From: a virus
Length of the DNA: 38,463 bases
Reading direction: 5' to 3' (one strand)
IMG/VR virus record: IMGVR_UViG_3300022926_000001
Coordinates: 1 to 38,463 of that record
The position numbers and the translations under genes were made by a program. The stretch's first letter is position 1. Each line of letters opens with the position of its first letter. Shown in pieces: positions 1 through 38,463 of the stretch. A model generated the notes under the pieces. The model searched no databases and had not been told where the DNA came from. It saw only the letters and a list, made by a program, of their open reading frames with translations.

Positions 1-105
1 ACCACTACAGTTACTGAAACGGCTACAATCACACCAACCACTACAGTTACTGAAACGGCTACAATCACACCAACCACTACAGTTACTGAAACAGCTACAA
101 TCACA
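1..105 (+). repeat. 36-base tandem repeat at the left end
   Basis: A unit lacking its first three bases, a full unit and a third unit with one change (G to A at 93), followed by diverged copies. The frame is the same as at the right end. The exact terminal direct repeat is 69 bases; extended to 105 bases it has one mismatch. Confidence 0.95.
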
Positions 106-957
106 CCAACAGCTACAGATACGGTAACGGAAACTACAACGATAACTCAAACAATAACCCATACTTCAACCTTTGATGAATGTTGTGGGGAGGTAAAAAA
201 TTTAATAGAAATCGTTAACACTAGTGATATAGTAGAAAGCGATAGAAGAACTGGAGAAGAAATATTAATTCAAAATATATCAAATCTAATGCAAGATTCC
301 TCTGTTTGTATTGGGGGGGTATCAAAATCAGTAGACCTTAAAACAGTAAACATTAAAGTAGGAAATACAGACCCAGCAAAAGAATTTTCTTTAGCCACGG
401 TAAAATTCGAGGGAAATCTTGATGATCAAACAATTTTTATTAAAAAGAGGTATGGAGATGTAAACTCTGGCACAGATCCAGCAGATCAATTTTTTAGCAC
501 AGATTCTACTCCCACCGAAACCATTAATCCATGTGGTTATGGATTTTGTGTAGAGTATACCCCTTGTCAAGAAGGAGACATTGATCCGTCAAGATGTATT
601 GACAGATTAGTTTGCAGTGGAGCTCTAGACATTGGAAATGTGCATATTGCTTTCAGGCCTGGACAAATCCCTCCTGAAGTTTTCGTAGATGTGGGAAGAT
701 GTTATCGCAAAGTAGGAGGGTCTCAAGCTAAAAATTGTAGTTTCTTTATTGATGACAATACAGGCTGCGGAGGAACTGGAGATAAATTTTTAAATGAAAC
801 ACAATTTAATAAAAATTTTGTTAAAAAACTAAATGATACCGTGGTTATCGCAGATGATTGCAATCAATGTTGTGCGTGCTCTCAGGATACAACATGTTTT
901 AGTTGCGACATACAATGGTCTGGAAACTCTGGAGATTGTGACGTCTCAAACCCTTGA
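1..957 (+). CDS. Thr-rich stalk, Cys-rich C-terminal virion protein (3' part)
   Basis: The frame is open from the first base, so this is the 3' part of a gene whose start lies outside or across the window join. The first ~57 codons are a Thr/Pro/Glu repeat with unit PTTTVTETATIT; the rest is a ~260-residue globular part ending in a cysteine-rich tail with NQCCACSQ and TCFSC. The same design, a threonine stalk with a Cys-rich tip, closes the 1213-residue tail protein further on. The frame matches the open frame that runs off the right end of the window, so the two may be one protein of roughly 470-490 residues, or two related genes. No enzyme motif is visible. The next gene starts 6 bases after the stop, and that neighbourhood suggests a head, neck or decoration protein. 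Function is inferred from composition and context only. Confidence 0.7.
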   Translation, partial: TTTVTETATITPTTTVTETATITPTTTVTETATITPTATDTVTETTTITQTITHTSTFDECCGEVKNLIEIVNTSDIVESDRRTGEEILIQNISNLMQDSSVCIGGVSKSVDLKTVNIKVGNTDPAKEFSLATVKFEGNLDDQTIFIKKRYGDVNSGTDPADQFFSTDSTPTETINPCGYGFCVEYTPCQEGDIDPSRCIDRLVCSGALDIGNVHIAFRPGQIPPEVFVDVGRCYRKVGGSQAKNCSFFIDDNTGCGGTGDKFLNETQFNKNFVKKLNDTVVIADDCNQCCACSQDTTCFSCDIQWSGNSGDCDVSNP

Positions 958-4613: not shown

Positions 4614-5336
4614 ATGGCTAAAATTTGTTTTAAAAAAAAATCAATTTTTTTTCATGTTCCTAAAAATGCAGGAACATCCCTAACTGTATTTTTCGGTCGG
4701 TGTGGGTGGCATACATTTAGGTACTCCCCAATAGACGGACCTTGTGACACAACAAGTCCTGATTATAAATACTCGAAAGGATGCTGCATTAGAGTGCGGG
4801 AAAACATGAAACAAATTGCAGCTCATAATGATTTAGAGAGAGCGCGGGGTAAAGCTATCCCATACTTTGCAAAAAACATTAATTCATCAGAACTTGAAAT
4901 GGTAAAAAAAATCGACCATAACACTTGGGATGATTTTTATAAATTTGCTTTTGTAAGAAACCCTTGGGATAGATTAGTTTCAGCTTGGAAAAACAGGGTG
5001 ACAAGCATAATAAGTTTTGAAAAGTTTATCGACACTCTGCCGTTTGATAAAAGCTTTACAGATGCTTATTGGCATACCATGCCCCAGTATGATCATTTGT
5101 ACGACGAACAAGGAAAACGATTGGTACAAGATATATTTAAGTATGAAGAGCTTGATGTGTATATGGACCACATTAAGTTAAAATTAGAATTACCAGATTT
5201 TCCTATTGATAAAAAATGGAATTCAAGCGGAGTAAGAAAGCATTACTCAGAATATTATACTAAAACTGAACAAATTGAAAAAGTAGCAAAAATTTACGAA
5301 AAAGATATAAATCAATTTAATTATAAATACAGGTAA
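4614..5336 (+). CDS. PAPS-dependent sulfotransferase (Sulfotransfer_2-like)
   Basis: A 240-residue protein with both PAPS-binding signatures: the 5'-phosphosulfate loop IFFHVPKNAGTSL at residues 11-23 and the 3'-phosphate motif FVRNPWDRLVSAW around residues 113-125, with Arg115 and Ser123 as expected ligands. Enzymes of this family move sulfate from PAPS to a hydroxyl, usually on a sugar. The acceptor is unknown. It sits inside the tail module between the major tail protein and the chaperone-like pair, an odd place for an enzyme, and has its own promoter candidate, so it looks like an inserted cargo gene. A second sulfotransferase domain lies in the fusion protein at 32994-34793, so the two may act on the same glycan. 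Motif recognition is strong; substrate and role are inferred. Confidence 0.87.
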   Translation: MAKICFKKKSIFFHVPKNAGTSLTVFFGRCGWHTFRYSPIDGPCDTTSPDYKYSKGCCIRVRENMKQIAAHNDLERARGKAIPYFAKNINSSELEMVKKIDHNTWDDFYKFAFVRNPWDRLVSAWKNRVTSIISFEKFIDTLPFDKSFTDAYWHTMPQYDHLYDEQGKRLVQDIFKYEELDVYMDHIKLKLELPDFPIDKKWNSSGVRKHYSEYYTKTEQIEKVAKIYEKDINQFNYKYR

Positions 5337-15630: not shown

Positions 15631-18600
15631 ATGAATTTTGATAATGTAAATATATTAGGAATATCATATCAAAATATTGATTTCGAATCTAATTACATAT
15701 TTCACAAAAAAAAAGCTATTACTTTAAGTGGAAATTTTTTAGACTTAGGAAACGATAGTGGGGTAAAAAATATTATTGAAGCTTATAGTGATTTAATTGA
15801 AATTGAAAATGCTTTAAATTTAACAGACTCATCTATAACCCATAATCTTCAGGAAATTTTTATTAATAGTGTTTCCTATGGAGAGGGAACTGTAGAAAGT
15901 ATTGCTATATCTGGAGAACATATACAGACAGCGGAGTTTCAAGCAACTTTGCTTTTTGTCGAAGAAGGAGATTTAAATAAAATATTTATATCCAAAAATT
16001 CTTCTAGTAGTGAAAGTTTTAATTCTTCAGGTTTAACAAATGAGGATTTGAAGTATTTAGATTCTTTTGATGAAAATTTCAATTTTGCAACTTCTGGATC
16101 TCAAAAATCTGTAAGTCATGAAATAAGCTGCACGTTTAAAAAAAGAAAATCTTTAATACCTTACAGAAAAAACGTATGGAGTAACTCCTCGATACAAAAA
16201 TCTAAGTTAAAAAACTTAAACAATAAGGGAAAAGGTTCTATTAAAGTTTTAGCTGGAGAAACCGCTAGTCATCAAATTTTTCTGGAATCTGGAGATTATA
16301 TATTAGAGCTAGAATACCTTGGGCAGGATTCGCCCATATGGGGCCAAGCAAGCGTGCAATGCGAAAGCAAAACAGAAAATCTACCAGATGTATACTCTCA
16401 TAGAGAAATAGAATTCAATGTAGATGTAGACAAGAATGTAAATATAAATTTAATCGCGAATAATACTATTAATACTTTTTTTGATAATATTAAACTGTTC
16501 AAGAAAAGTGAAATGCCTTTAGAGAAGGCGAGGCAATTTGTTAATTTTATTTTCTCAGAATCTCCAGAATACCCAATAATAAATGATCAATTTGGAGAAA
16601 ATTATTCAGATGTAAGTTTATACGAAAGGTTAAATTCAGAGGAGTCGTTTGACGGTATAAATAACTCATACTCTGTTGCTAAAAATCTACAGTATAACGA
16701 AACAGACTCTACAAAACAATACTCAAGGAGACTTTCCTCTTCTATTAATTTTGAAGGCAATGGGGTTGTTATTATCAGGGAGTCTATAGAAATTAAAATT
16801 TTAAGGGAGAAAACCGAAACAAAATTAAAAAATTTTTTACAGCTAGAATTAGCTGGGTCCAGGTCAAGAGGTCAAAATCTACTTGATGAATACAAGCAAT
16901 TAAATGTGGTAACATGTCCAACTCCAACAGCCACCGAGTTGATAGAGGATTTGTTTGGTTTTTCGGAATCTTTGAGCGTTGAATACGATTTCGATTCGGG
17001 CTTAGCAAATGCAGAAGTTTCTTATTCAAATGATCCAGACAATCAAATTTACTCAGGATCAGCTTTTAAGGTAACGCAATCTAGGTCGATTGAATTCAAT
17101 CAAGGGTTTGAGATTGTTAGGTTGTCTGGGGATATTATTGGCCAAGGCGACGATATTGATACTAAAAATCAAAACGCAAAGAAAGGCTTGCAGTTTATTG
17201 TAGAGAGCATAAACTCAACACTGAGAGAGATAGAGAGTAGATATAAATTAGATTATTATTCAACTCCAACGACAACCTCTACGGAAATAAAAACCAAGTT
17301 ACTAGAGACGAATAAAACTCTATCATTTAATGATGTAAGTGGAGCTATATCTTATTCTTACTCTTTTAGTAATGAGAGGGGGGTTTTTGATTTACCAGAA
17401 GATCAAAAAGACAGGGTTAAAAAATATGAAATTAAAATAGACCATCAAAATAGAATTAATTTATTCAATGAGTTTTCAATAAATTGCTTTAGAATAGCTC
17501 AAGTTATGGGAGACTTGTTTTCTCCAAAAGTTACAACAATAGAAATAACATTACAGGGCAGGAGTGGTACCACATTAGGAATTCTGAAACAAAGTGCTAT
17601 AAGTATATTAGAATACAAAAATTTGTTGTTTGGAGAAATATCAAAAGGTACAAAAGATGATATTATAAATAGTAATGAAAATAAATTTTTAGTAGACGAA
17701 AATTATTCTTATGACCCAACAGAAAATAGATTAAGCTACAGCAGGTCGATATTAGATGTATCAGATTGCCCGACTTCAAGTATAGGTAATGGATATCCAT
17801 GGACATACCAGGCAGATTTTGAAGAGCCGACGGAACCAACCAGAACCACCTTTGAGTATGAGCCTATAGAATATAACTTCGCTGAAACTCCGAGTGAAAG
17901 CGGGTTTAAATTAGATGCGGATGACTACGAACTAGAATACCCAGAGCCAACTTTAACAGATTTTATCTCTGAAGAGGTGCCGCCTCCTACATTTCTAGAA
18001 GCTCCAGTTGTTACTCGAACTAGTTATCCAGAAATCTCGCAAACACCAACGACCAGCGAAAGTCCAGAAGCTCAAGATACGACAGATAGAATAGTTGAAG
18101 TTTTCGTGCCTGAAAACTGGAATAAAACTATTAGCGAACTAGTTCCAGGGGGTACAATATTGTCAGGAAAAAGATGTTTCGATCAAAGTGGGGGGCCGAA
18201 TAATTTAATTGAAAATATTATCTCCACATCTTATGCTTTTTCAACAAAGGTTAAAGATTGCATAAGGGGTGGAGATGGTGAACCTTGGTACAGTTTCACA
18301 TTTTCTATACCAAGAGATCAAAGTTTTACTCCGCCGCACAGTGATAACTGTCAGTTTTTTCATGTGACAGTTCCAGATTTTTATGATGAAAATTTAAACT
18401 GTTTATTAAAGGAAAATGGTGTTTGCATAGGAGATAGTAGTAATTTAATTGGATATCACATTGCACCTGGAACTTTTATATATAGTAATTTATATAATAG
18501 TGAAACATTTATTATAGCCGCTCAAACATATAATAATAACCATCCTTATTTTTATAGAGGGGAAGTTGTTAATGGAGAAGTTAGTTTTCAGATATGTAAA

Positions 18601-19272
18601 GATGATAAAAGCGGAATAGTTAAAACTGAAGAGGTTATACAAACAATTTCAATACCATTTAACTCTGGTAAAACAGTAGCTCAAGAAATTATAGATGGGG
18701 TACAGGGTTGGCAAGCGGGTAAGTGTTACGAAACGATAGGTCTTAAAGATTGTAGTTCAGGGGTGAGATTTAATTTAAAAGACAAAAGATATTATAAAGA
18801 GGATGTTTTGGATAGATGTGGAGAGTTATCTTTTAATGATTTAGTAACAAATATTTATGTTAGAGAATTTTCATGCTCATCAACGGTATTAGATGAAAGT
18901 GTAATATATGATTACGAATCTCCAGTCACACCAACAGCTACAAAAACTGCAACAGTTACGGTTACACCAACAGATACAGTTACGGTTACACCAACAAATA
19001 CAATAACTACAACAGTTACTACTACAGAAACAGAAACAGAAACAGAAACAATAAATTGTACTGGTTGTTTTGCTTTTTACGATTTTAGTTTTGATGATTA
19101 TAGTAACACGAATTGTTTTGATAGAGTTCCAACTTGCTCAGATCCATGTGCGTGTTCGGTTATGGTAGATGATAATGGAGACACAGACGGACTATTTGGA
19201 GGGGGAACGGGGCCTACTGTATCATGTTGTCATGATATGGTAAAAGGAGATAATGATTGTAGTATGTGTTAG
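15631..19272 (+). CDS. Large distal tail protein with Thr stalk and Cys-rich tip
   Basis: A 1213-residue virion protein. It starts with a segment (NVNILGISYQNIDFE, DSGVKNIIEAYSDL) that resembles the start of the next gene product, followed by recurring beta-rich units such as YSRRLSSSINFEG, FKVTQSRSIEFNQGF and GAISYSYSFSNE. A Pro/Glu-rich linker (residues ~730-830) leads to a Cys-containing globular part, then a Thr/Val/Pro/Glu stalk (residues ~1098-1139, e.g. TVTVTPTDTVTVTP, TETETETETINC) and a cysteine-dense tip (CSDPCACS, VSCCHDM, DCSMC). It directly follows the tape measure gene, where distal tail and tail-tip genes lie. The tip could be disulfide-stabilised or metal-binding. No enzyme motif was seen; an adhesion role is inferred. 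Confidence 0.65.
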   Translation: MNFDNVNILGISYQNIDFESNYIFHKKKAITLSGNFLDLGNDSGVKNIIEAYSDLIEIENALNLTDSSITHNLQEIFINSVSYGEGTVESIAISGEHIQTAEFQATLLFVEEGDLNKIFISKNSSSSESFNSSGLTNEDLKYLDSFDENFNFATSGSQKSVSHEISCTFKKRKSLIPYRKNVWSNSSIQKSKLKNLNNKGKGSIKVLAGETASHQIFLESGDYILELEYLGQDSPIWGQASVQCESKTENLPDVYSHREIEFNVDVDKNVNINLIANNTINTFFDNIKLFKKSEMPLEKARQFVNFIFSESPEYPIINDQFGENYSDVSLYERLNSEESFDGINNSYSVAKNLQYNETDSTKQYSRRLSSSINFEGNGVVIIRESIEIKILREKTETKLKNFLQLELAGSRSRGQNLLDEYKQLNVVTCPTPTATELIEDLFGFSESLSVEYDFDSGLANAEVSYSNDPDNQIYSGSAFKVTQSRSIEFNQGFEIVRLSGDIIGQGDDIDTKNQNAKKGLQFIVESINSTLREIESRYKLDYYSTPTTTSTEIKTKLLETNKTLSFNDVSGAISYSYSFSNERGVFDLPEDQKDRVKKYEIKIDHQNRINLFNEFSINCFRIAQVMGDLFSPKVTTIEITLQGRSGTTLGILKQSAISILEYKNLLFGEISKGTKDDIINSNENKFLVDENYSYDPTENRLSYSRSILDVSDCPTSSIGNGYPWTYQADFEEPTEPTRTTFEYEPIEYNFAETPSESGFKLDADDYELEYPEPTLTDFISEEVPPPTFLEAPVVTRTSYPEISQTPTTSESPEAQDTTDRIVEVFVPENWNKTISELVPGGTILSGKRCFDQSGGPNNLIENIISTSYAFSTKVKDCIRGGDGEPWYSFTFSIPRDQSFTPPHSDNCQFFHVTVPDFYDENLNCLLKENGVCIGDSSNLIGYHIAPGTFIYSNLYNSETFIIAAQTYNNNHPYFYRGEVVNGEVSFQICKDDKSGIVKTEEVIQTISIPFNSGKTVAQEIIDGVQGWQAGKCYETIGLKDCSSGVRFNLKDKRYYKEDVLDRCGELSFNDLVTNIYVREFSCSSTVLDESVIYDYESPVTPTATKTATVTVTPTDTVTVTPTNTITTTVTTTETETETETINCTGCFAFYDFSFDDYSNTNCFDRVPTCSDPCACSVMVDDNGDTDGLFGGGTGPTVSCCHDMVKGDNDCSMC

Positions 19273-30536: not shown

Positions 30537-32951
30537 ATGAATATGAAAATTAAAAAACGAAACGGCAGGTTAGAAGAATTTAATGTAGAAAAAATAAACG
30601 CTAGTGCTGAAAGAGCCTGCATTGGAATAGAGGATGTATCAGCTAGTGAGATTGTGCTAGACGCCCAATTACAACTATTCGATAAGATAACAACCAGAGA
30701 AATAGATCAAGCTCTAATCTTCTCTGCCCGCGAAAAGATTGAAAAAGAACCTAATTACTCTTTCGCTGCCGCACAGTTATTACTCAATACTTTATATAAA
30801 GAAGTTTTTAAGGAGGGTGTGGATTCCGATACGTTTAAACTTCAGTATAGAAAAAGCTTCATTCAAAACACAAAAAAATTAGTTAAGGAAAATAGGCTAG
30901 ACGAACGTTTACTCGATTTTGATCTTTCTTTCTTATCTGAAAATATAAAAATAAGACGAGATAAAAACTTAAAATACCTCGGGGTTCAAATTCTTTATGA
31001 TAGATATTTTCTTAGAATAGACGGCAAGATTCTGGAAGCTCCACAATCTTTTTTTATGCGTGTAGCCATGGGGCTTTCTATCAATGAGGATAATAAAAAC
31101 GAAAGAGCTGTTGAATTTTATAATTTAATTAGCCAGCAGCTTTATACCCCATCTACCCCAACTCTTTTTAACAGTGGAACTACTCATTCGCAGCTTAGTT
31201 CTTGCTATCTTAACACTTTTGACGATAGCATTGACGGTATCTTTGATGGTGCTTGGCAAGAAGCCAGAAAATCAAAATACGCTGGCGGTCTCGGTCTTGA
31301 TGTTACCCCTTTTCGTTCCACAGGTTCTCATATTGAAGGAACTAATGGTATTTCAAGCGGATTAGTTCCATGGCTTAAAATATACAATGATTTATTAGTT
31401 GCAGTAAATCAGGGCGGAAAACGCCCAGGTGCTGGTTGTGCCTACCTGGAACCCTGGCACTTAGATTATGAAGATTTTCTAAATCTTCGCAGGAACACTG
31501 GGGACGACAGGCTTCGCTGTCATGACATGAATACCGCTTCCTGGATTCCTGATGAGTTTATGCGTAGGGTTAAAAATGAAGAAATTTGGTATTTCTTTGA
31601 TCCTAAATACGCAGATCTTCATGATCGATTTGGCGAAGATTTCGATGCAAGATATAAAGAATTATGCAATCAAGCCGATGAAGGGTTAATACAAAACTAC
31701 AGAACAATTCCAGCTAAAGAACTATGGAAAAAGATGCTTAAAGTACTATTCGAAACTTCTCATCCTTGGAACACATTTAAAGATCCATGTAATATTAGAT
31801 ATACCAATCAACATGCTGGAGCCGTACGCAGCTCTAATCTTTGTACGGAGATCACCCTTCACACAAAACCATCTGAATACAAACAGGGTGAAAAAACTAA
31901 AATTGGAGAAACCGCTGTTTGTAATTTAGGTTCTATTAATGTATTGAATCACTTATTAGAAGATGGGGAGATAGATTTTGATAAGCTCAAACAATCTATT
32001 CATACTGCCGTCAGAATGTTGGATAACGTAATTGATATTAACTTCTACCCAACCAAAGAGTCTAGCAACTCTAATCTTAAAAATCGCCCAGTAGGATTAG
32101 GAGTTATGGGCATACACGACGTACTTCATGTTAAAAATATACCTATCGATAGCGAAGAAGCCATACATTGGAATGATTCTTTCTTTGAGTTTTATAGCAG
32201 GGAGGCTATTTTAGCTAGCTCAAAATTAGCAAAGGAAAGAGGTCCTTACGAAAATTTTGAAGGTTCTTTGTGGCACCAAAACATTCTACCAATAGATAGT
32301 TTCGATATTTTACATAAATACAGAAAATCAAAATTCAACAAGAAGGAGTCTTTAAACTGGTCAGAAGTGCGAGATTCAATAAAATCCCACGGAATGCGCA
32401 ATAGTAATGTTATGGCAATTGCCCCAACCGCCACAATTGGCTACATCAATGGTGTAGAACAAAGCATTGAACCTAATTTTTCCGTTTTATTTGTTTACGA
32501 AAATAAAAGTGGTAATTTTTACATCACCAATCCCCACTTCGTTAAAGACATGAAAGACAGGGGCTTATGGAATTCAGAAATTTCAAATTTAGTAAAAAAT
32601 TGTGATGGAGATTTATCTTTAATTGATGACTCTATACCAGAAAGCTTAAAAGAAAAATACAAAACAGCCTTCGATAGAGATATGTTCAAACTAATAGATT
32701 GCAATTCAGTTCGACAAAAATGGATAGATCAGGCTGTTAGCTTCAATCTCTACAATAAAACAACTTCATTGAAATATTTAAACGACATATACTTTCACGC
32801 TTGGGAGAAATGCTTAAAAACAACTTACTATTTAAGAAATCGTGCTGCTAGTAAAATTGAGAAGTCTTCTCAATCCGAAACAGAACCCAAAAATAATTCC
32901 TGCAGTATAGCAGCTAAAGCTCGTGGCGAAAGTTGCGAAAGTTGTCAATAA
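30537..32951 (+). CDS. nrdA: Ribonucleoside-diphosphate reductase large subunit, class I
   Basis: An 804-residue enzyme that reduces ribonucleotides to deoxyribonucleotides. Residues ~1-90 are an ATP-cone regulatory domain (MKIKKRNGRLEEFNVEKINA). Catalytic residues are in place: Cys223 (QLSSCYLN), Asn434, Cys436 and Glu438 (SNLCTEI), Cys462 (AVCNLGSIN), Tyr764-Tyr765 of the radical path (KTTYYLRN), and the C-terminal CESCQ shuttle cysteines. GKRPGAGCAYLEPWH is a family hallmark. No small subunit gene is present, although class I enzymes need one; it must lie elsewhere or come from the host. Base skew is nearly neutral, unlike the G-rich tail genes and the C-rich genes that follow. Confidence 0.97.
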   Translation: MNMKIKKRNGRLEEFNVEKINASAERACIGIEDVSASEIVLDAQLQLFDKITTREIDQALIFSAREKIEKEPNYSFAAAQLLLNTLYKEVFKEGVDSDTFKLQYRKSFIQNTKKLVKENRLDERLLDFDLSFLSENIKIRRDKNLKYLGVQILYDRYFLRIDGKILEAPQSFFMRVAMGLSINEDNKNERAVEFYNLISQQLYTPSTPTLFNSGTTHSQLSSCYLNTFDDSIDGIFDGAWQEARKSKYAGGLGLDVTPFRSTGSHIEGTNGISSGLVPWLKIYNDLLVAVNQGGKRPGAGCAYLEPWHLDYEDFLNLRRNTGDDRLRCHDMNTASWIPDEFMRRVKNEEIWYFFDPKYADLHDRFGEDFDARYKELCNQADEGLIQNYRTIPAKELWKKMLKVLFETSHPWNTFKDPCNIRYTNQHAGAVRSSNLCTEITLHTKPSEYKQGEKTKIGETAVCNLGSINVLNHLLEDGEIDFDKLKQSIHTAVRMLDNVIDINFYPTKESSNSNLKNRPVGLGVMGIHDVLHVKNIPIDSEEAIHWNDSFFEFYSREAILASSKLAKERGPYENFEGSLWHQNILPIDSFDILHKYRKSKFNKKESLNWSEVRDSIKSHGMRNSNVMAIAPTATIGYINGVEQSIEPNFSVLFVYENKSGNFYITNPHFVKDMKDRGLWNSEISNLVKNCDGDLSLIDDSIPESLKEKYKTAFDRDMFKLIDCNSVRQKWIDQAVSFNLYNKTTSLKYLNDIYFHAWEKCLKTTYYLRNRAASKIEKSSQSETEPKNNSCSIAAKARGESCESCQ

Positions 32952-32993: not shown

Positions 32994-34793
32994 ATGGCAA
33001 AATCTTTAAAAAAACAAAATAGAATATGTGTTTTCTACCCCTGTACTCAAAAAGAGTTAAAATCTGGGGATTTGTATAAATCTATTTCAAGAATCATTTC
33101 AAAAAAACCTTCTGAAAAATATTCTTTTGATTTATTTTTAATACTCGATAATTTACCTGAATCCGATTTTAATTTAAATAAAATACTTGATTTAGAGAAC
33201 ACCGTTTATCTCAATAAAATTTATACCCATAGTCTAAATCTTAGCGAGTCTGAAAATTTATATATAAAGCATTGGGACAGTAGATCTAGTCTACCCGAAA
33301 TTATACCTCCTCACGGCATAAGCTCTGGCCCCAACAACTCCTTTTACCAAAGCTTGTACTACCTCCTAGCCCATCCAAATCGCTACCAATACAGCCTCTT
33401 ATTAGAAACAGATATTCAGATTTTAAAAACAAAATGGCTAGACCATATCTTAAACTTCTGTCAATCTAATGAGTTTTCTATAGCTGGCTCTAAGTATAAA
33501 GGTATTCAAAAATGGCATAGAGTATTAGATTATAAAGATCACCTCAATGGAATAGCTATATATAATTTAAATAAAGATTTATATAAAATATTAAAATCTA
33601 GCGAGGATCATTTAATTAAATCGGTTAAAAGCGGCGTTCCATTTATTAATTTCGATATAGCGATAGATGAATGGCGAAGATCAGAAGAAGGATCCCGATT
33701 TTTTAATAACTCAAACAAGCTTATAGATACAAAATTTATAACTAACGCTAGCGACCCAGAAGATTCAAATTTAAGCAAGTTTAAAATTTTAAAACATTAT
33801 CCAGATACAATTATCCTTCATCACAAAACTAATTCTAGTAACTTCTCCTTCACATCTCAGGCTGTCTTACATAATATCGATTACTTAGACCCTAAAATAG
33901 AATTAATTAAAAAACTTTCAAAACCCTCGCTCAATAAGATTAATATTCCTATATTTTTTCATATACCAAAAAACGCTGGTACCTTCATTGAAAGTTTAAT
34001 TGCAAATTTATTAAGACGTTATAATAGACTTCACTTCCATTCGGAATATCCACGTGAATTAAGAATTACCATAAAGGGTTTAGAATGTTTTAATATATTT
34101 TTTATAGATTCAAAAAATATATTAGGTTTAGATAAAAGTATTGACCATATAGACTCAATTACTTATAGATGTGAAATTTCAGATGTTCCAATTGGTTTTT
34201 TTGATTCAATTTCGCCCTTCTCTATCACAGTCAATAGTAATGGATTCAGGCATTTTAACACTCTTTTCAATTTCTTTGATTCGAAATTTTATTCACTTAG
34301 GCCTTTCCTAGCCTTAAGAGATCCTCTTGATAGAGCTCTATCTTTATATGAATATAACAATTCCTTTGCTTCTTCTCACGACGAAAAGCATGGCTCCATT
34401 TCTTATAACACCTTCATAGAATACACTTCTAGCATGCAGTTCGAAGATGCCTGGATCATCAGAAACCTCTTAGATGTTAAAGACGAGCATGAAATCTCTG
34501 AAGCTATTTATGAAAAATTTTTAAAATTTATATCTTATTTTAATATCGTTTTCACGGAAGATTCTGATTTTCCCAGTAAAATAGGATCTTTATATGAAAA
34601 TATATACGATGGTTTATCCCCTCATCTAATTCCAAATTCCTGGCTTAAAGATACTCCACTTAATAAAAACGAAAATAAAAACAAAAAATTCTCTAGAGAA
34701 TCTTTGTCTGAAGACCATCTGCAAGTTTTTAATGAAAAATCTAAATTTGATTATAAGTTGTACAACAGTTTAAAATCTAAGTTTTTAGATTAA
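32994..34793 (+). CDS. Glycosyltransferase-sulfotransferase fusion protein
   Basis: A 599-residue protein with two parts. Residues ~1-300 look like a GT-A glycosyltransferase: a Rossmann-like start (NRICVFYPCTQ), the acidic motif YSLLLETDIQILK with Glu138-Thr-Asp140 in the DxD position, and a downstream FDIAIDEWRR segment. Residues ~315-599 carry the PAPS signatures: IFFHIPKNAGTFIESL (His323 to Thr330) and the 3'-phosphate motif FLALRDPLDRALSLYEY (Arg442, Ser450). A single chain that adds a sugar and a sulfate would make a sulfated glycan in one place. The gene begins the sugar cassette and is richer in C and T than the tail genes. The sulfotransferase half is clear; the glycosyltransferase half is a fold-level guess. 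Confidence 0.72.
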   Translation: MAKSLKKQNRICVFYPCTQKELKSGDLYKSISRIISKKPSEKYSFDLFLILDNLPESDFNLNKILDLENTVYLNKIYTHSLNLSESENLYIKHWDSRSSLPEIIPPHGISSGPNNSFYQSLYYLLAHPNRYQYSLLLETDIQILKTKWLDHILNFCQSNEFSIAGSKYKGIQKWHRVLDYKDHLNGIAIYNLNKDLYKILKSSEDHLIKSVKSGVPFINFDIAIDEWRRSEEGSRFFNNSNKLIDTKFITNASDPEDSNLSKFKILKHYPDTIILHHKTNSSNFSFTSQAVLHNIDYLDPKIELIKKLSKPSLNKINIPIFFHIPKNAGTFIESLIANLLRRYNRLHFHSEYPRELRITIKGLECFNIFFIDSKNILGLDKSIDHIDSITYRCEISDVPIGFFDSISPFSITVNSNGFRHFNTLFNFFDSKFYSLRPFLALRDPLDRALSLYEYNNSFASSHDEKHGSISYNTFIEYTSSMQFEDAWIIRNLLDVKDEHEISEAIYEKFLKFISYFNIVFTEDSDFPSKIGSLYENIYDGLSPHLIPNSWLKDTPLNKNENKNKKFSRESLSEDHLQVFNEKSKFDYKLYNSLKSKFLD

Positions 34794-34799
34794 TATAAT
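34794..34799 (+). promoter_or_regulatory. TATAAT box 6 bases before a GTG start
   Basis: A perfect TATAAT directly follows the fusion gene stop codon (overlapping its end) and is separated from the GTG by 6 bases, the spacing seen before four ATG genes. No clear -35 box. Confidence 0.35.
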
Positions 34800-34805
34800 T
34801 ATATT

Positions 34806-35162
34806 GTGCTTCCAGATTTTTTTTCCAACAAGAGTTTAATTTGTATATATTGCCCCTCTTTAAAGTTTTCTGACTTTAATATTTTAATTTCTCAAATTGG
34901 TAAAGTTTCATTTGAGCTTAAAAATTGTGAGTTTTTTATATCTTCACTAGATAAAAAAATAACTAAAAAACTATCCGAAATAAATTTTACCTTCTACAAA
35001 CCAGAAGATTACAATCTCCATGATCACGACTTTGATTACTTTATCACAACATCCTCTGACTCCAAAAACCTAAATCATGAAAATCTTAAAAAAATATTTT
35101 TTTTAAATGAATCTTCTTTTTCTTTTAAAATCTCCCCTGCCTTAATTAGTAGTTTTTTATGA
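34806..35162 (+). CDS. Short cassette protein, possible glycosyltransferase fragment
   Basis: A 118-residue protein with a GTG start. Its opening LICIYCPSLKFSDFNILIS resembles the start of the neighbouring fusion protein (RICVFYPCTQ), so it may be a truncated copy of that domain or a small accessory subunit. There is no catalytic motif. The stop overlaps the next ATG (ATGA), so the two are co-translated. Asp/His-rich residues 70-80 (YNLHDHDFDYF) are notable. Confidence 0.45.
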   Translation: MLPDFFSNKSLICIYCPSLKFSDFNILISQIGKVSFELKNCEFFISSLDKKITKKLSEINFTFYKPEDYNLHDHDFDYFITTSSDSKNLNHENLKKIFFLNESSFSFKISPALISSFL

Positions 35163-35992
35163 CTCAAAAAAGCTTAAGTATAATACTTTGCTCCAAAAAC
35201 GACAATTATTGCGGCAAATCAATTAAAAAACTAGAATTAATATTTAAGTACATCCATAAGTTTTCTAAACTTTTAAATCCACAAATTCTTTTTGATGTCA
35301 TTTTGGTCGACTGGGGATCTTCATTACCCTTATCCGAAAGCCCTATTTTAAATAACGCTGATTTTAATTTCGTTAATTTTTTGCATTTTAGTAAAGATTA
35401 TTGTGACCCATTAAACGGTGACTCCGAATACTCTCAACCCCACGCTCTAAATGAAGCGATTAATCACAGCTCTAATAACTTTTTTTTAAAAATCGACCAT
35501 GACACAATTATAGGCCCTTCTTTCTTTCATTGGTTTGATCAAAATTTAAATTTACCTAACTTAGCTTTTTCTTGCTCAAGAAATATTAATTACAATCAGC
35601 TGGAATCAATTGATGAAATTTTACTCAGTGATAATTTTCAAGATTTTAAATTAAGCGAAACCCAATACTGCTTTAATAAAAAATCAAATGAAAATTTCTT
35701 CCCCTTTTTTGGTTGCCAACGTGGTGTTTTATTTTTTTCTAAAAATGCGGCTCTTATCAATAACGGCTTTAATCAGGACTTAGTTTTTCAAAATTATCAA
35801 TCCATAGATTTCATAAATAGATTATTATACAAGTATAACATTTATAATTTAGGATTGAAATTAAACTTTGACTTTTACCATTTAGAACATCAACATAAAG
35901 ACGGGTTACACAGAATATCAAATTCTTTTCTATATAAAAATAATATTTTTTCACCTCAAAATAAAAATAGAAAATTAAAAAATAAATTATAA
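35159..35992 (+). CDS. Family 2-type glycosyltransferase
   Basis: A 277-residue GT-A enzyme: N-terminal SLSIILCSKNDNY, the substrate-loop segment HALNEAINHSSNNFFLKID, and the DxD-type metal motif Asp113-His-Asp115 (KIDHDTIIGPSFF), followed by FFGCQRGVLFFSKNAALINN and YHLEHQHKDGLHR. The fold transfers a sugar from a nucleotide donor to an acceptor such as a polysaccharide, teichoic acid or protein. No membrane segment is visible, so it is probably cytoplasmic. It overlaps the short gene upstream and shares the C-rich composition of the cassette. Confidence 0.8.
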   Translation: MTQKSLSIILCSKNDNYCGKSIKKLELIFKYIHKFSKLLNPQILFDVILVDWGSSLPLSESPILNNADFNFVNFLHFSKDYCDPLNGDSEYSQPHALNEAINHSSNNFFLKIDHDTIIGPSFFHWFDQNLNLPNLAFSCSRNINYNQLESIDEILLSDNFQDFKLSETQYCFNKKSNENFFPFFGCQRGVLFFSKNAALINNGFNQDLVFQNYQSIDFINRLLYKYNIYNLGLKLNFDFYHLEHQHKDGLHRISNSFLYKNNIFSPQNKNRKLKNKL

Positions 35993-36004
35993 TATATATA
36001 ATAT

Positions 36005-36937
36005 ATGAAAGTTTTAGTTACTGGTGGAGCTGGTTATGTAGGATCTGTTTTAGTTGGGAAATTATTAGAAAAAAATATCAAAGTTTGTGTTGTTGATAAT
36101 TTAATGTATGATAATGGCTTTACATTAATTCCTCACTTCAACAATCCTAAATTTCAATTCATTAAAGGTGATGTTAGAGACAAGTCCTTAATGAAAGATT
36201 TGGTTCATAATTTTGAATTTGTAATACATCTAGCTGCCATCGTTGGTTTTCCAGCATGCAGAAAAAATCCTCAATTAGCTAGAGAAGTTAATGTTCATTC
36301 CACCAAACATATATCTTCCCTACTTTCTCCAGAACAAGGTGTTGTTTACGCATCTACTGGTTCAAATTATGGCATCATTGAAAATCAAATATGCACAGAG
36401 GAAACACCGCTTAATCCAATAAGTCTATACGGTAAAACAAAAACAAAAGCTGAAGAAATTTTCCTCAATGAAAATGGGGCTGTAGCCTATCGTTTCGCTA
36501 CTGCCTTTGGTCTTTCCCCCAGAATGCGCTTAGATTTATTAATTAATGATTTTGTTTATCAAGCCATCAACAACAAAACTCTTGTAATGTTTGAAAAATC
36601 ATTCAAGAGAACTTTTATTCATGTTAATGACATGGCAGATAGCATTATTTACGCTATAGATAATTACGACAATATGAAGAACGACACTTATAATATTGGC
36701 GGGGATTTCAACAACTTCAATAAAGAAGAAATAGCATTAATGATTAAACAAAAAGTGGATTATTACTTACACTTTGCTGAAATTGGAGAAGACGAAGACA
36801 AAAGAAATTACGAAGTTTCTTATAAAAAAATAAACGACAAAGGCTTTGAAATCAAAACATCTGTTAAAGATGGCATAAATGAATTAATTAAAGCTGTTCC
36901 AGCTTTAGATAGTAGAAGTAAATATAAAAATGTATAA
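36005..36937 (+). CDS. NAD(P)-dependent sugar-nucleotide epimerase/dehydratase
   Basis: A 310-residue extended SDR enzyme. The cofactor loop is TGGAGYVG (residues 6-13), followed by an acidic strand end (CVVDNLMYDN), the HLAAIVG segment, and the catalytic Tyr142-x-x-x-Lys146 (LYGKTKTKAEE) with a Ser/Thr cluster in YASTGSNYG. FKRTFIHVNDMADSI and YNIGGDFNNF are family landmarks. It interconverts nucleotide sugars (UDP-glucose epimerase- or GDP-mannose dehydratase-like) in the cytoplasm. The substrate cannot be told by eye. It overlaps the next gene by 8 bases. Confidence 0.88.
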   Translation: MKVLVTGGAGYVGSVLVGKLLEKNIKVCVVDNLMYDNGFTLIPHFNNPKFQFIKGDVRDKSLMKDLVHNFEFVIHLAAIVGFPACRKNPQLAREVNVHSTKHISSLLSPEQGVVYASTGSNYGIIENQICTEETPLNPISLYGKTKTKAEEIFLNENGAVAYRFATAFGLSPRMRLDLLINDFVYQAINNKTLVMFEKSFKRTFIHVNDMADSIIYAIDNYDNMKNDTYNIGGDFNNFNKEEIALMIKQKVDYYLHFAEIGEDEDKRNYEVSYKKINDKGFEIKTSVKDGINELIKAVPALDSRSKYKNV

Positions 36938-37862
36938 AAAAATATTAATAACAGGAGGCTCGGGGTTCCTTGGTCGACAAATAGTTAACGAATGTAGTCA
37001 AGAATTCGAAGTTCTTGCTCCAAGAAGCTCTGAATTCAATCTTTACGATTATGAATCTACCTCTAATTTTATTAAAGAGCATAAACCAGAAGTGGTAGTT
37101 CACTCAGCTGCTTACTACGGGGGCTTAAATATTAATATTGAAGAGCCTGCCAACCTTTTTAGAAATAACACCATAATGACAGCAAACATTTATGAAGCCG
37201 CTGCTAAAAATGGTGTTAAAAAAGTTGTGGCTGTAGGTTCTGCATGTGCTTACCCAGGAGAAGTCGTCGGGGACATGAAAGAAGAAGATTTCTGGAGTGG
37301 CCCTATGCACGATTCTGTTATTGGATATGGTTCTTCTAAAAAAATCCAACTCATTGCTCAAAAATCCTACTTCCAGCAATACGGCTTACTTGGTAACCAC
37401 CTTTCTCTAACCAATTTATACGGAGAGCACGATGTTTTTCAAATTTACAGAGCTCATGTAGTCGCCGCCTTAATTAAAAGATTTTCCGACGAAATTAATA
37501 ACCCCTCTATAACAAATTGGGGTGATGGAAGTCCAGTTAGAGAATTTTTATATGTAAAAGACGCCGCAAAAGCGATCAAAATTTCTATCAATTCCGAGTC
37601 TGACCTCGAACCTATCAATATAGGAACTGGAGTAGGAACATCAATTAAAGAACTTGCTGATCTTACAGCTAAATATATGAACTACCAAGGAGAACTAAAA
37701 TGGGACACCTCTAAGCCTAACGGAGTCATGAGAAAAGTTCTCGATGTAACCAAGATGAAATCTAAATTTCCTGATTTTACACCTATTTCTTTCGAAGAAG
37801 GTTTGCGTCAAACAATTTCTTGGTATTTAGAAAATAAACAATCCGCAGATTCTAGATTATAA
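36930..37862 (+). CDS. fcl: GDP-fucose synthase-like SDR enzyme
   Basis: A 310-residue extended SDR enzyme: cofactor loop TGGSGFLG (residues 8-15), HSAAYYGGLNINIEEPANLF, VAVGSACAYPGEVVGDMKE, catalytic Tyr133-x-x-x-Lys137 (GYGSSKK), LTNLYGEHDVF and WGDGSPVREFLYVKDAA. The last segment and the NLYGxxD motif are typical of GDP-4-keto-6-deoxymannose epimerase/reductase (GDP-L-fucose synthase). A GDP-mannose 4,6-dehydratase would be needed upstream; the preceding SDR gene might do that or it comes from the host. The product would supply donor sugar to the glycosyltransferases of this cassette. A relative with another 6-deoxysugar product is possible. Confidence 0.8.
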   Translation: MYKKILITGGSGFLGRQIVNECSQEFEVLAPRSSEFNLYDYESTSNFIKEHKPEVVVHSAAYYGGLNINIEEPANLFRNNTIMTANIYEAAAKNGVKKVVAVGSACAYPGEVVGDMKEEDFWSGPMHDSVIGYGSSKKIQLIAQKSYFQQYGLLGNHLSLTNLYGEHDVFQIYRAHVVAALIKRFSDEINNPSITNWGDGSPVREFLYVKDAAKAIKISINSESDLEPINIGTGVGTSIKELADLTAKYMNYQGELKWDTSKPNGVMRKVLDVTKMKSKFPDFTPISFEEGLRQTISWYLENKQSADSRL

Positions 37863-37875
37863 AAAATTTCTTTTT

Positions 37876-37914
37876 CATGGAGGTTTTGTGTAAAAGTTTT
37901 TTACAGTCTCCATG
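37876..37914 (+). promoter_or_regulatory. Nested hairpin covering the start codon of the stalk gene
   Basis: CATGGAG (37876-37882) pairs with CTCCATG (37908-37914), and GTAAAA pairs with TTTTAC inside it. The outer stem buries the ATG at 37912 and the only purine-rich GGAGG nearby. GTGTA lies in the loop region. Also possible: a 15-codon frame from ATG 37877, MEVLCKSFLQSPCLI. Confidence 0.45.
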
Positions 37915-38463
37915 TCTAATATAAATATATTTTCTAGCGAACCTACAACTTTCTCTGGAAGTTTGTCTATTCCATCTGGAACCTCTCAAACTTTAAGTTC
38001 TGAGAGTTTTTTTATTGGTAAAAAACTAACACATTCATACATTTTTTTTGTAGAAAATTCTAGTAGCTCAGATGCAGTAGCCAGAGTTTGCGTTTCCAAC
38101 TTAAAAGATTTCTCTGTTTGGACTTGTATTTATACCGAAAAAATCGACCCGAAATCCTCCAAGAGTTTTTACTTTAATGATGTTTTTAACTTTGAATATA
38201 CAAAGATTGAATTCACATCTTCTTCTGGAGAATTAATTTTCAATTCTGTTCATAATCCTATATATAAACCTAAATCGTCTGGAAATTTTCCTGTTAATTT
38301 TTACACTCCTACAGAAACTTTTAGTGGTACCCCAACTCTTACCCCTAGCACTCCACCAACCACTACAGTTACTGAAACGGCTACAATCACACCAACCACT
38401 ACAGTTACTGAAACGGCTACAATCACACCAACCACTACAGTTACTGAAACGGCTACAATCACA
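37912..38463 (+). CDS. Thr-rich stalk virion protein (5' part)
   Basis: An open frame of 184 codons runs off the right end of the window. It begins MSNINIFSSEPTTFSGSL, continues as a ~140-residue Ser/Phe-rich beta-strand domain (SYIFFVENSSSSDAVARVC, SFYFNDVFNFEYTKIEF), then a Pro/Thr linker (TPTETFSGTPTLTPSTPP) and three identical 12-residue repeats PTTTVTETATIT. The frame is continued by the one open at position 1 if the window ends are joined. The Thr/Pro repeats resemble mucin stalks and could be glycosylated by the adjacent cassette. It is separated from the GDP-fucose synthase gene by a 49-base gap with a hairpin over the start. Confidence 0.7.
   Translation, partial: MSNINIFSSEPTTFSGSLSIPSGTSQTLSSESFFIGKKLTHSYIFFVENSSSSDAVARVCVSNLKDFSVWTCIYTEKIDPKSSKSFYFNDVFNFEYTKIEFTSSSGELIFNSVHNPIYKPKSSGNFPVNFYTPTETFSGTPTLTPSTPPTTTVTETATITPTTTVTETATITPTTTVTETATIT
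38356..38463 (+). repeat. 36-base tandem repeat at the right end (three identical units)
   Basis: Three exact 36-base units, each coding PTTTVTETATIT. The last 69 bases are identical to the first 69 of the window. Confidence 0.95.

Follow-up and report, generated by a model that had tools for sequence, protein, structure and literature searches.

The window (38,463 nucleotides, positions 1 to 38,463 of IMG/VR virus record IMGVR_UViG_3300022926_000001) carries, beside its ribonucleotide reductase (RNR) gene, a run of candidate glycosyltransferase (GT), sulfotransferase (ST) and sugar-nucleotide SDR genes that ends in a gene for a threonine-rich stalk protein (Table 1). From 32994 to 38463 all ORFs lie on one strand, with intergenic gaps of 12, -4, 12, -8 and 49 bp. 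The cassette runs directly into the stalk gene, as the sequence-only reading had stated, and no terminator-like site was seen in the 49 bp between the Fcl-like SDR gene and the stalk gene, using a scan that is weak because it yields fewer sites than shuffled sequence. The labels neck, tail and capsid used below are taken from gene order. The terminase matched a PHROG at 2.8e-24 and the portal did so weakly (0.0095); there was no informative Pfam or PHROG match for the 1213-aa protein, the capsid protein or the neck core.

Table 1. Features of the window and the basis on which each is described
Feature	Position	Strand	Basis or comment
Neck-stalk protein, C-terminal 318 aa	1..957	+	End of (T-x)n tract at 1-170, then Cys-rich part
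Sulfotransferase, 240 aa, PF03567 type, within tail module	4614..5336	+	Pfam, PHROG
1213-aa protein after tape-measure gene	15631..19272	+	Tail by position; (T-x)n and Cys-rich C-terminal extension
RNR large subunit	30537..32951	+	PHROG 9e-234; anchors variable glycan island
Probable GT-ST fusion, 599 aa	32994..34793	+	GT-like ~residues 1-290, ST-like 310-599
118-aa protein, function not assigned	34806..35162	+	34% to G004, 26% to G006
GT2-like glycosyltransferase, 277 aa	35159..35992	+	G006 relative matches PF00535, plus alignment
SDR1 resembling PDB 6vo6, 310 aa	36005..36937	+	phmmer 8.5e-90
Fcl-like epimerase/reductase (GDP-L-fucose synthase-like), 310 aa	36930..37862	+	NCBIfam GDPFucSynFcl, PDB 1bsv
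Second stalk protein (stalk2), 184 aa, open at window end	37912..38463	+	N-domain 37912-38310, then (T-x)n tract

The putative GT-ST fusion had no match in PHROGs or PDB and none that reached the cut-off in Pfam or NCBIfam, its one sub-threshold Pfam match being to DUF5338 (0.011). Its ST half resembles PF03567-type enzymes by profile-profile comparison alone (hhalign 96.5%, E 8e-10, 56 columns), having no match to PF03567 at the curated cut-off and none in PDB; since this link is remote, we describe the half as probably working like a PF03567 sulfotransferase and do not class it as a member. It carries the motifs HIPKNAGT and RDPLDRA, for which we assume PAPS-binding roles. The N-terminal half is a probable glycosyltransferase of an unclassified kind, assigned by motifs and context: the domain matched no NCBIfam or PDB family, gave one meaningless sub-threshold Pfam match in one of eight members, and so fits no known glycosyltransferase family in these three collections. 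The GT fusion profile showed no relation to that of the GT2 gene, and the AlphaFold model of the fusion was unusable (pLDDT 43.8). The fusion proposed by the sequence-only reading thus stands as an ORF and as a probable assignment, on weaker grounds than had been claimed. The second glycosyltransferase is likewise a sound ORF, whose family comes by way of the G006 relative (Glycos_transf_2, 7.7e-07) and not from a Pfam match of its own.

The GT profile matched 39 loci in 38 records, a count that takes in near-copies as well as seed loci that match by construction. ST is fused to GT at 20 of these loci and fused or nearby at 31, so that the two are paired across the set. Several ST genes are often present at a locus. 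No match to the fusion was found in 50,697 phage records, and the family, found in viral contigs, looks new. At L371 and L374 the GT-ST gene is followed by a same-strand protein with tail-fibre PHROG matches, and at L376 one small ST gene stands between the two (881-1263 aa across these three loci); L382 and L388 are arranged similarly, except that two small genes intervene and tail-fibre PHROG matches are lacking. Near RNR, the GT gene, the 118-aa gene and the GT2 gene stay together in this order in three lineages, the G006 version having a different strand arrangement and an inserted 338-aa gene, and the 8-bp overlap of the SDR1 and Fcl-like genes is common to two lineages. Such persistence and the frequent GT-ST fusion argue against unlinked genes, that is, metabolic cargo at a recombination hotspot with different targets, DNA bases or small molecules included; the contents of the RNR-side region do differ from relative to relative, as that explanation would have it, yet we consider it very improbable.

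Both SDR genes were borne out as sugar-nucleotide enzymes by Pfam Epimerase matches (6.8e-35 and 5.5e-42). SDR1 resembles PDB 6vo6, which we take to be Cj1427, an NAD-dependent sugar-nucleotide C4-dehydrogenase. The Fcl-like SDR matches GDPFucSynFcl at 1.8e-65, under that model's curated cut-off, and PDB 1bsv at 1.8e-49, with aligned and conserved Cys, His, Tyr and Lys that are presumably the catalytic residues of the epimerase/reductase. A gene for GDP-mannose 4,6-dehydratase (Gmd), missed by the sequence-only reading, lies in L025 (2502-3557), upstream of the capsid gene in the head module; over 8,656 bp this record and the window are 99.98% identical, and we take them as the same virus. The L025 Gmd is 85% identical to a G001 protein that matches Pfam at 3.4e-99, PDB at 6.1e-73 and TIGR01472 at 2.8e-90, the last under the model's curated cut-off; G004 and G006 had no Gmd-grade match. 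With Gmd and the Fcl-like SDR in one virus, a GDP-L-fucose route is present, and genes for making the donor, transferring the sugar and adding sulfate are all there. Given the resemblance of SDR1 to Cj1427, the sulfated deoxyhexose suggested earlier would be one option among sugars.

The second sulfotransferase, in the tail module, was upheld by matches to Pfam Sulfotransfer_2 (PF03567; 7.8e-16, 59.4 bits against a curated cut-off of 22) and the PHROG galactose-3-O-sulfotransferase (6.7e-11). It occupies the same spot in four of six stalk-clade loci and in none of the 35 stalkless loci covering that spot (two lineages), and its G006 homologue is 51% identical. That a glycan-sulfation module is encoded by the phage is well supported.

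In three tracts of the window (1-170, 18928-19049 and 38359-38462) every second residue is Thr. Among 33 related records, five each contained 71-3894 matches to this (T-x) pattern; the reversed control gave no match in the same five and a single match in each of two further records. The tracts are far beyond chance. The segment at 1-957, previously read as a stalk-type segment, does hold a tract, and L025 corrects its identity: it is the C-terminus of a separate 594-aa protein, encoded just downstream of the capsid gene (L025:7535-9319) and made up of a conserved neck-type core and a (T-x)n extension. This gene and the one at 37912 are different genes with a common 36-bp repeat at the contig break. 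The shared repeat at the window ends would allow an in-frame join and a circular genome, which we rejected because the sister record G001 carries two different genes. Orthologues of the neck core were found in 72 of 81 loci and the extension in ten of the 72, with L039 counted as lacking it although its neck gene is cut at the contig end and shows some T-richness. On the capsid tree (31 of 80 MCPs) the extension maps as one change (support 93/89). The 1213-aa protein also has the stalk-type segment ascribed to it, beginning at about residue 1100 (nt 18928-19071); a homologue in stalkless G011 (1087 aa) aligns with residues 1-1091 and stops there. Both tracts thus extend conserved proteins of the structural module. 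The full-length G004 relative of stalk2 has 889 aa, and the stalk2 N-domain is a predicted beta-sandwich (pLDDT 76) with only weak structural matches, which says little.

Among three close strains, Thr columns changed at 0-1 of 62-65 positions and interleaved columns at 11-43 of 62-65, in an alignment that itself favours T-to-T matching. Independently of any alignment, unbroken runs of 60-76 T-x units make dense Thr tracts, whose location in the particle is judged from gene order. Such conservation of every second Thr exceeds what a spacer needs. It argues against the idea that the enzymes modify the virion elsewhere (tail fibre, capsid or Cys-rich domain) and that the tracts, themselves undecorated, serve as spacers lengthening or stiffening appendages, although a regular fold might impose the same conservation. 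The same idea draws support from TxT tracts being widespread, mostly with no such enzymes nearby, and from the tail-fibre-like proteins that GT-ST precedes in L371, L374 and L376, which are non-TxT. On balance we think it unlikely. D[ST][AILVMT] is the Bacteroidetes-type O-glycosylation motif. Its counts, seven within the strict T-x runs of 14 ORFs and 57 in a whole 4048-aa G004 protein, give no support to host glycosylation of this type acting on the runs.

Comparisons of relatives drew on the best 80 of 363 MCP loci, 44 of which (records of at least 25 kb and seven close relatives) were searched for GT, stalk and Fcl; the 33-record counts cover 29 of those 44 and four records chosen for carrying GT-ST. 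Near-copies (for example L040/L022; L027/L041; L375/L376/L377/L134) count as separate loci. The order SDR1-Fcl-stalk2 is retained in G004 and its near-copy G013, where the stalk domain is only 39% identical and, in G004, 944- and 508-aa TxT proteins follow; this 206-kb relative holds about 24.6 kb of TxT DNA. Next to its stalks G004 has a GT copy cut down to a stub that lacks ST, an intact fusion lying elsewhere; tail-module ST is absent, as is a long tract in the tail-type protein. Since the stalk clade is a single clade, these co-occurrences amount to few independent events.

Further afield, an ORF with (T-x)>=10 lay within the fetched DNA at only three of the 39 GT loci, two more (L365 and L130) having TxT elsewhere in the record. 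A general TxT-enzyme association was tested and not found. None of the 50 further TxT viruses covered (from 68 T-frame TxT loci, which come from 80 stretches listed out of at least 120) had a PF03567 ST, versus one of 39 random controls (of 52, those of 14 kb or more); the same model matched 14 of the 33 family records. Cassette-like enzymes lay near TxT genes at one of the 68 loci, from the same 80 listed stretches, versus one of the 52 controls. Among 28 TxT-negative related records, ten carried a PF03567 ST and nine a true Gmd. Stalkless G020, G021, G022 and G025 have islands of Gmd or Fcl with glycosyltransferases beside RNR, G032 has no seed enzyme there, and G048 combines the fusion with a compact neck-type protein of 173 aa, its 56 kb containing no TxT tract. 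The earlier proposal of virion glycosylation is favoured within the clade by the tracts on structural-module proteins, the retained gene order and the clade-specific ST, and it finds no support as a general rule for the GT family or for TxT viruses at large. The sequence-only reading had named, as evidence against itself, cassette homologues that always lack stalk proteins and modify host surface glycans; homologues without stalks do occur, and modification of host glycans by them is not borne out either.

These stalkless islands, and GT loci that mostly lack TxT and often have several ST genes, are what one would expect if the enzymes instead remodelled the host surface, acting on LPS or capsule precursors at the cytosolic face to add a fucose- or heptose-like sulfated cap that blocks superinfection or re-adsorption, the stalk adjoining them through a shared variable region for appendages and glycans. 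PMC7029224 interprets in this way the glycosyltransferases that pelagimyophages carry within their tail-fibre region. Hydropathy predicted no membrane helix in the cassette and, among non-overlapping ORFs of at least 80 aa in G000, G001 and G004, this crude analysis found no integral-membrane flippase, polymerase or glucosyltransferase, nor any polytopic glycan-assembly protein in the 206 kb of G004. This speaks against a host-surface target, although soluble glycosyltransferases could still act on precursors, and so does the restriction of the tail-module ST to the clade that has the stalks. We regard such a target as a serious possibility while doubting it. As a hint of the host, one 3.1-kb contig falls in a Flavobacteriaceae MAG, which is too weak to use.

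Our preferred reading, at a probability of roughly 0.4, is that a cytosolic phage module makes and sulfates glycans, most likely to decorate protruding proteins of the phage's own virion, with the stalk a plausible acceptor. Gmd and the Fcl-like SDR would make GDP-L-fucose, and the Cj1427-like SDR may supply a second GDP-sugar. Two soluble glycosyltransferases would load sugar onto the Thr residues of (T-x)n stalks on the neck-type, tail-type and separate stalk proteins, and the ST half of the fusion together with the tail-module ST would add the sulfate groups; the outcome would be a dense coat with negative charge. In this scheme we infer the virion location of the proteins, the glycosyltransferase activity, the transfer of sulfate and, most of all, which molecule is the acceptor. 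A broader proposal, of a new phage glyco-sulfation system in which large uncultured phages pair an unclassified GT family, fused to or near ST, with genes for appendages, and which in this clade builds a sulfated mucin coat on the stalks of neck- and tail-type proteins, we hold to be somewhat unlikely.

In chloroviruses we know of no sulfotransferase fusion and no (T-x) acceptor. Passages of PMC4691112 describe PBCV-1, a eukaryotic giant virus and in this unlike the phage, as having its own GMD/GMER and virus-coded glycosyltransferases for autonomous glycosylation; the likeness is that the virus itself encodes a GDP-L-fucose pathway for its own glycans, the phage being known here from genes alone. 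In the openly accessible literature we found no paper joining phage sulfotransferases with virion glycosylation, phage sulfotransferase AMGs with the virion, marine phage sulfotransferases with fucose, or glycosylation with Thr-rich repeats of phages. Freeman et al. 2023 reportedly described virion glycosylation in mycobacteriophages. Citing earlier work, passages of PMC12894461 and PMC13313380 report a phage-coded glycosyltransferase and glycosylated mycobacteriophage virions, the former finding no virion glycosylation in its own ten phages; our phage likewise encodes probable glycosyltransferases, but these descriptions, by which we set the systems apart, mention no donor-synthesis or sulfation module. 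Pelagimyophages and cyanomyophages, likewise compared by description, are large marine phages whose LPS-related genes, glycosyltransferase and sugar-nucleotide genes among them, share a variable region with tail fibres, but sulfotransferases have 0 occurrences in the main text of PMC7029224. In Campylobacter jejuni, Cj1427, a GDP-heptose C4-dehydrogenase, and Cj1428 are GDP-heptose modification enzymes according to passages of PMC10680097, and the pairing of a C4-dehydrogenase-type with a reductase-type SDR recurs in the phage; there, however, the target is the capsule, and the second phage SDR best matches E. coli GDP-fucose synthetase.

If the preferred reading is true, phages would be covering their own particles with a sulfated, mucin-like coat of a kind otherwise tied to animal mucus, and such a coat would bear on phage diffusion, adsorption or receptor evasion. 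Even with a host-surface target, the putative GT-ST fusion is an enzyme family worth characterizing. The TxT extension, gained one time on a conserved protein, offers a clean natural comparison.

The cassette runs directly into a gene for a stalk protein, that is, one with a tract in which every second residue is threonine (TxT or (T-x)n), as the sequence-only reading had described. No terminator-like site was found between the cassette genes or before the stalk gene, in a scan that yields fewer sites than shuffled sequence.

Cassette genes and other features of the window
Feature	Position	Strand	Gap to preceding gene (bp)	Match
Capsid-adjacent protein, end	1-957			
Tail-module sulfotransferase	4614-5336			
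Tape-measure-like protein, 2801 aa	7216-15621			
ORFs of 259 and 96 aa	27298-28424			
Ribonucleotide reductase (RNR)	30537-32951			
Fusion protein, 599 aa, first cassette gene	32994-34793	+		
118-aa protein		+	12	
GT2-like protein, 277 aa		+	-4	
First SDR (SDR1)	36005-36937	+	12	6vo6
Second SDR (Fcl-like)	36930-37862	+	-8	NCBIfam, 1bsv
Stalk protein (stalk2), cut by window end	37912-38463	+	49	

Both SDRs are clearly identified by their matches: the second resembles Fcl (1.8e-65 to NCBIfam GDPFucSynFcl, below the model's curated cut-off; 1bsv, 1.8e-49), and the first matches 6vo6 (8.5e-90), which we take to be Cj1427. Cj1427 is described in PMC10680097 as a GDP-manno-heptose C4-dehydrogenase. 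The proposed fusion of a glycosyltransferase (GT) with a sulfotransferase (ST) held in part: no family scores above cut-off for the 599-aa protein, only profile comparison relates its C-terminal half to PF03567-type STs, and its N-terminal half was called a GT from motifs and context. The module would most likely act in the cytosol, making a GDP-sugar, transferring the sugar and sulfating it. A sulfated deoxyhexose, as first suggested, is compatible with Gmd (L025:2502-3557, in a record of the same virus) plus Fcl, but in the related contig G004 the SDR1-Fcl pair is retained and nothing scores at Gmd grade, so the donor may instead be a heptose or another GDP-sugar.

Virus-coded GDP-fucose synthesis is already described for chloroviruses (PMC4691112), resembling the route predicted from the Gmd and Fcl genes of this virus. 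Glycosylated phage virions were reported by Freeman et al. 2023, as cited in PMC12894461 and PMC13313380; PMC12894461 itself saw virion glycosylation in none of its own ten phages. Relative to these systems, the apparently new element is the GT-ST fusion, for which tblastn found no match in 50,697 phage records. The family's capsid protein also has no match in those records, yet 363 IMG/VR stretches encode a relative, indicating a common, uncultured phage family.

Comparison with the sister contig G001 (80,842 bp), whose fusion protein is 89% identical, and with L025 (99.98% identity over 8,656 bp) showed that the stalk-type segment at the window's start is the C-terminal part of a protein whose gene comes just after the capsid gene, and that stalk2 is a different gene. 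Capsid, neck and tail labels follow gene order next to the terminase, which PHROG matches clearly, the proteins themselves having no informative family match. The neck-type core (151-255 aa in extension-free loci) was present in 72 of 81 loci searched, and in 10 of these 72 it is extended by a (T-x)n tract (one cut locus is ambiguous). On the capsid tree, a single change is enough to account for the extension (support 93/89; the tree holds 31 of 80 proteins, those 80 being the best of the 363). The 1213-aa tail-type protein shows the same pattern of an extension on a conserved protein, as the 1087-aa homologue in stalkless G011 covers residues 1-1091 and then stops; the G004 homologue (1067 aa) lacks a long tract though inside the stalk clade, and the G007 alignment is limited to residues 3-851. 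Across three close strains, 0-1 of 62-65 threonine columns changed versus 11-43 of 62-65 interleaved columns. G004 (206 kb), which looks near-complete by gene order, has seven T-rich ORFs and a borderline eighth; its TxT DNA totals 24.6 kb, of which 19.2 kb forms one block with several frame changes (G004:C1:145482-164700), which could be one giant repeat gene disrupted by assembly errors or a set of separate genes. G004 also encodes a partly T-rich protein of 4048 aa (G004:C1:130263-142409), whose C-terminal part has a GDSGS motif resembling that of trypsin-type proteases.

For the stalk clade, we put at roughly 0.4 the probability that the module modifies protruding virion proteins, TxT stalks first, which makes these its most likely target. 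Membrane helices are predicted in none of the cassette proteins. The order SDR1-Fcl-stalk2 is retained in G004 and its near-copy G013 despite 39% stalk-domain identity. Between window and G004, the SDRs and RNR are 79-85% identical whereas the GT, GT2, 118-aa protein and stalk are 34-43% identical, so that transferases and stalks diverge together. The tail-module ST is in place in 4 of 6 stalk-clade loci covering the spot (two lineages; absent in G004) versus 0 of 35 outside the clade.

Host surface glycans are a nearly as likely target. The GT profile matches 39 viral-contig loci in 38 records; 20 of these loci carry the ST as a fusion, 31 have one either fused or close by, and 3 have TxT. 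PF03567 STs occur in 0 of 50 viruses picked only for TxT tracts (50 of 68 loci, from 80 listed of at least 120 stretches) versus 1 of 39 random viruses. The GT-ST module is therefore not a stalk-specific device in general, and the proposed co-occurrence of stalk and cassette is supported by gene order and the tail-module ST but not by these wider counts. PF03567 STs were found in 4 of 5 TxT-positive and 10 of 28 TxT-negative records (the latter including four chosen for GT-ST); for true Gmd the corresponding counts are 1 of 5 and 9 of 28. Gmd lies at the portal spot in 5/10 stalk-clade and 3/66 other loci, and is thus neither required for stalks nor restricted to them. Stalkless G020, G021, G022 and G025 have islands with Gmd or Fcl plus GTs beside RNR; stalkless G032 has no seed enzymes there.

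Gene neighbourhoods elsewhere suggest a possible link of GT-ST modules to appendages. The GT-ST gene is followed by a protein with tail-fibre PHROG hits in L371 and L374, and also in L376, where a small ST gene stands in between. The arrangement in L382 and L388 is similar, except that two small genes intervene and there are no tail-fibre PHROG hits. In the large phages L373, L378, L381, L385, L386 and L389, 4-7 ST-like ORFs lie within about 18-21 kb surrounding the GT gene.

Upstream of its head module, the sister phage encodes a subtilase (L020:7557-8738; Pfam S8, 3.7e-43). The 259- and 96-aa ORFs correspond to one 375-aa membrane/coiled-coil gene in G001 (69113-70240), apparently split by a frame break. 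Tape-measure size is a rule-of-thumb guide to tail length, and the 2801-aa protein, named by position and size, therefore points to a very long tail.
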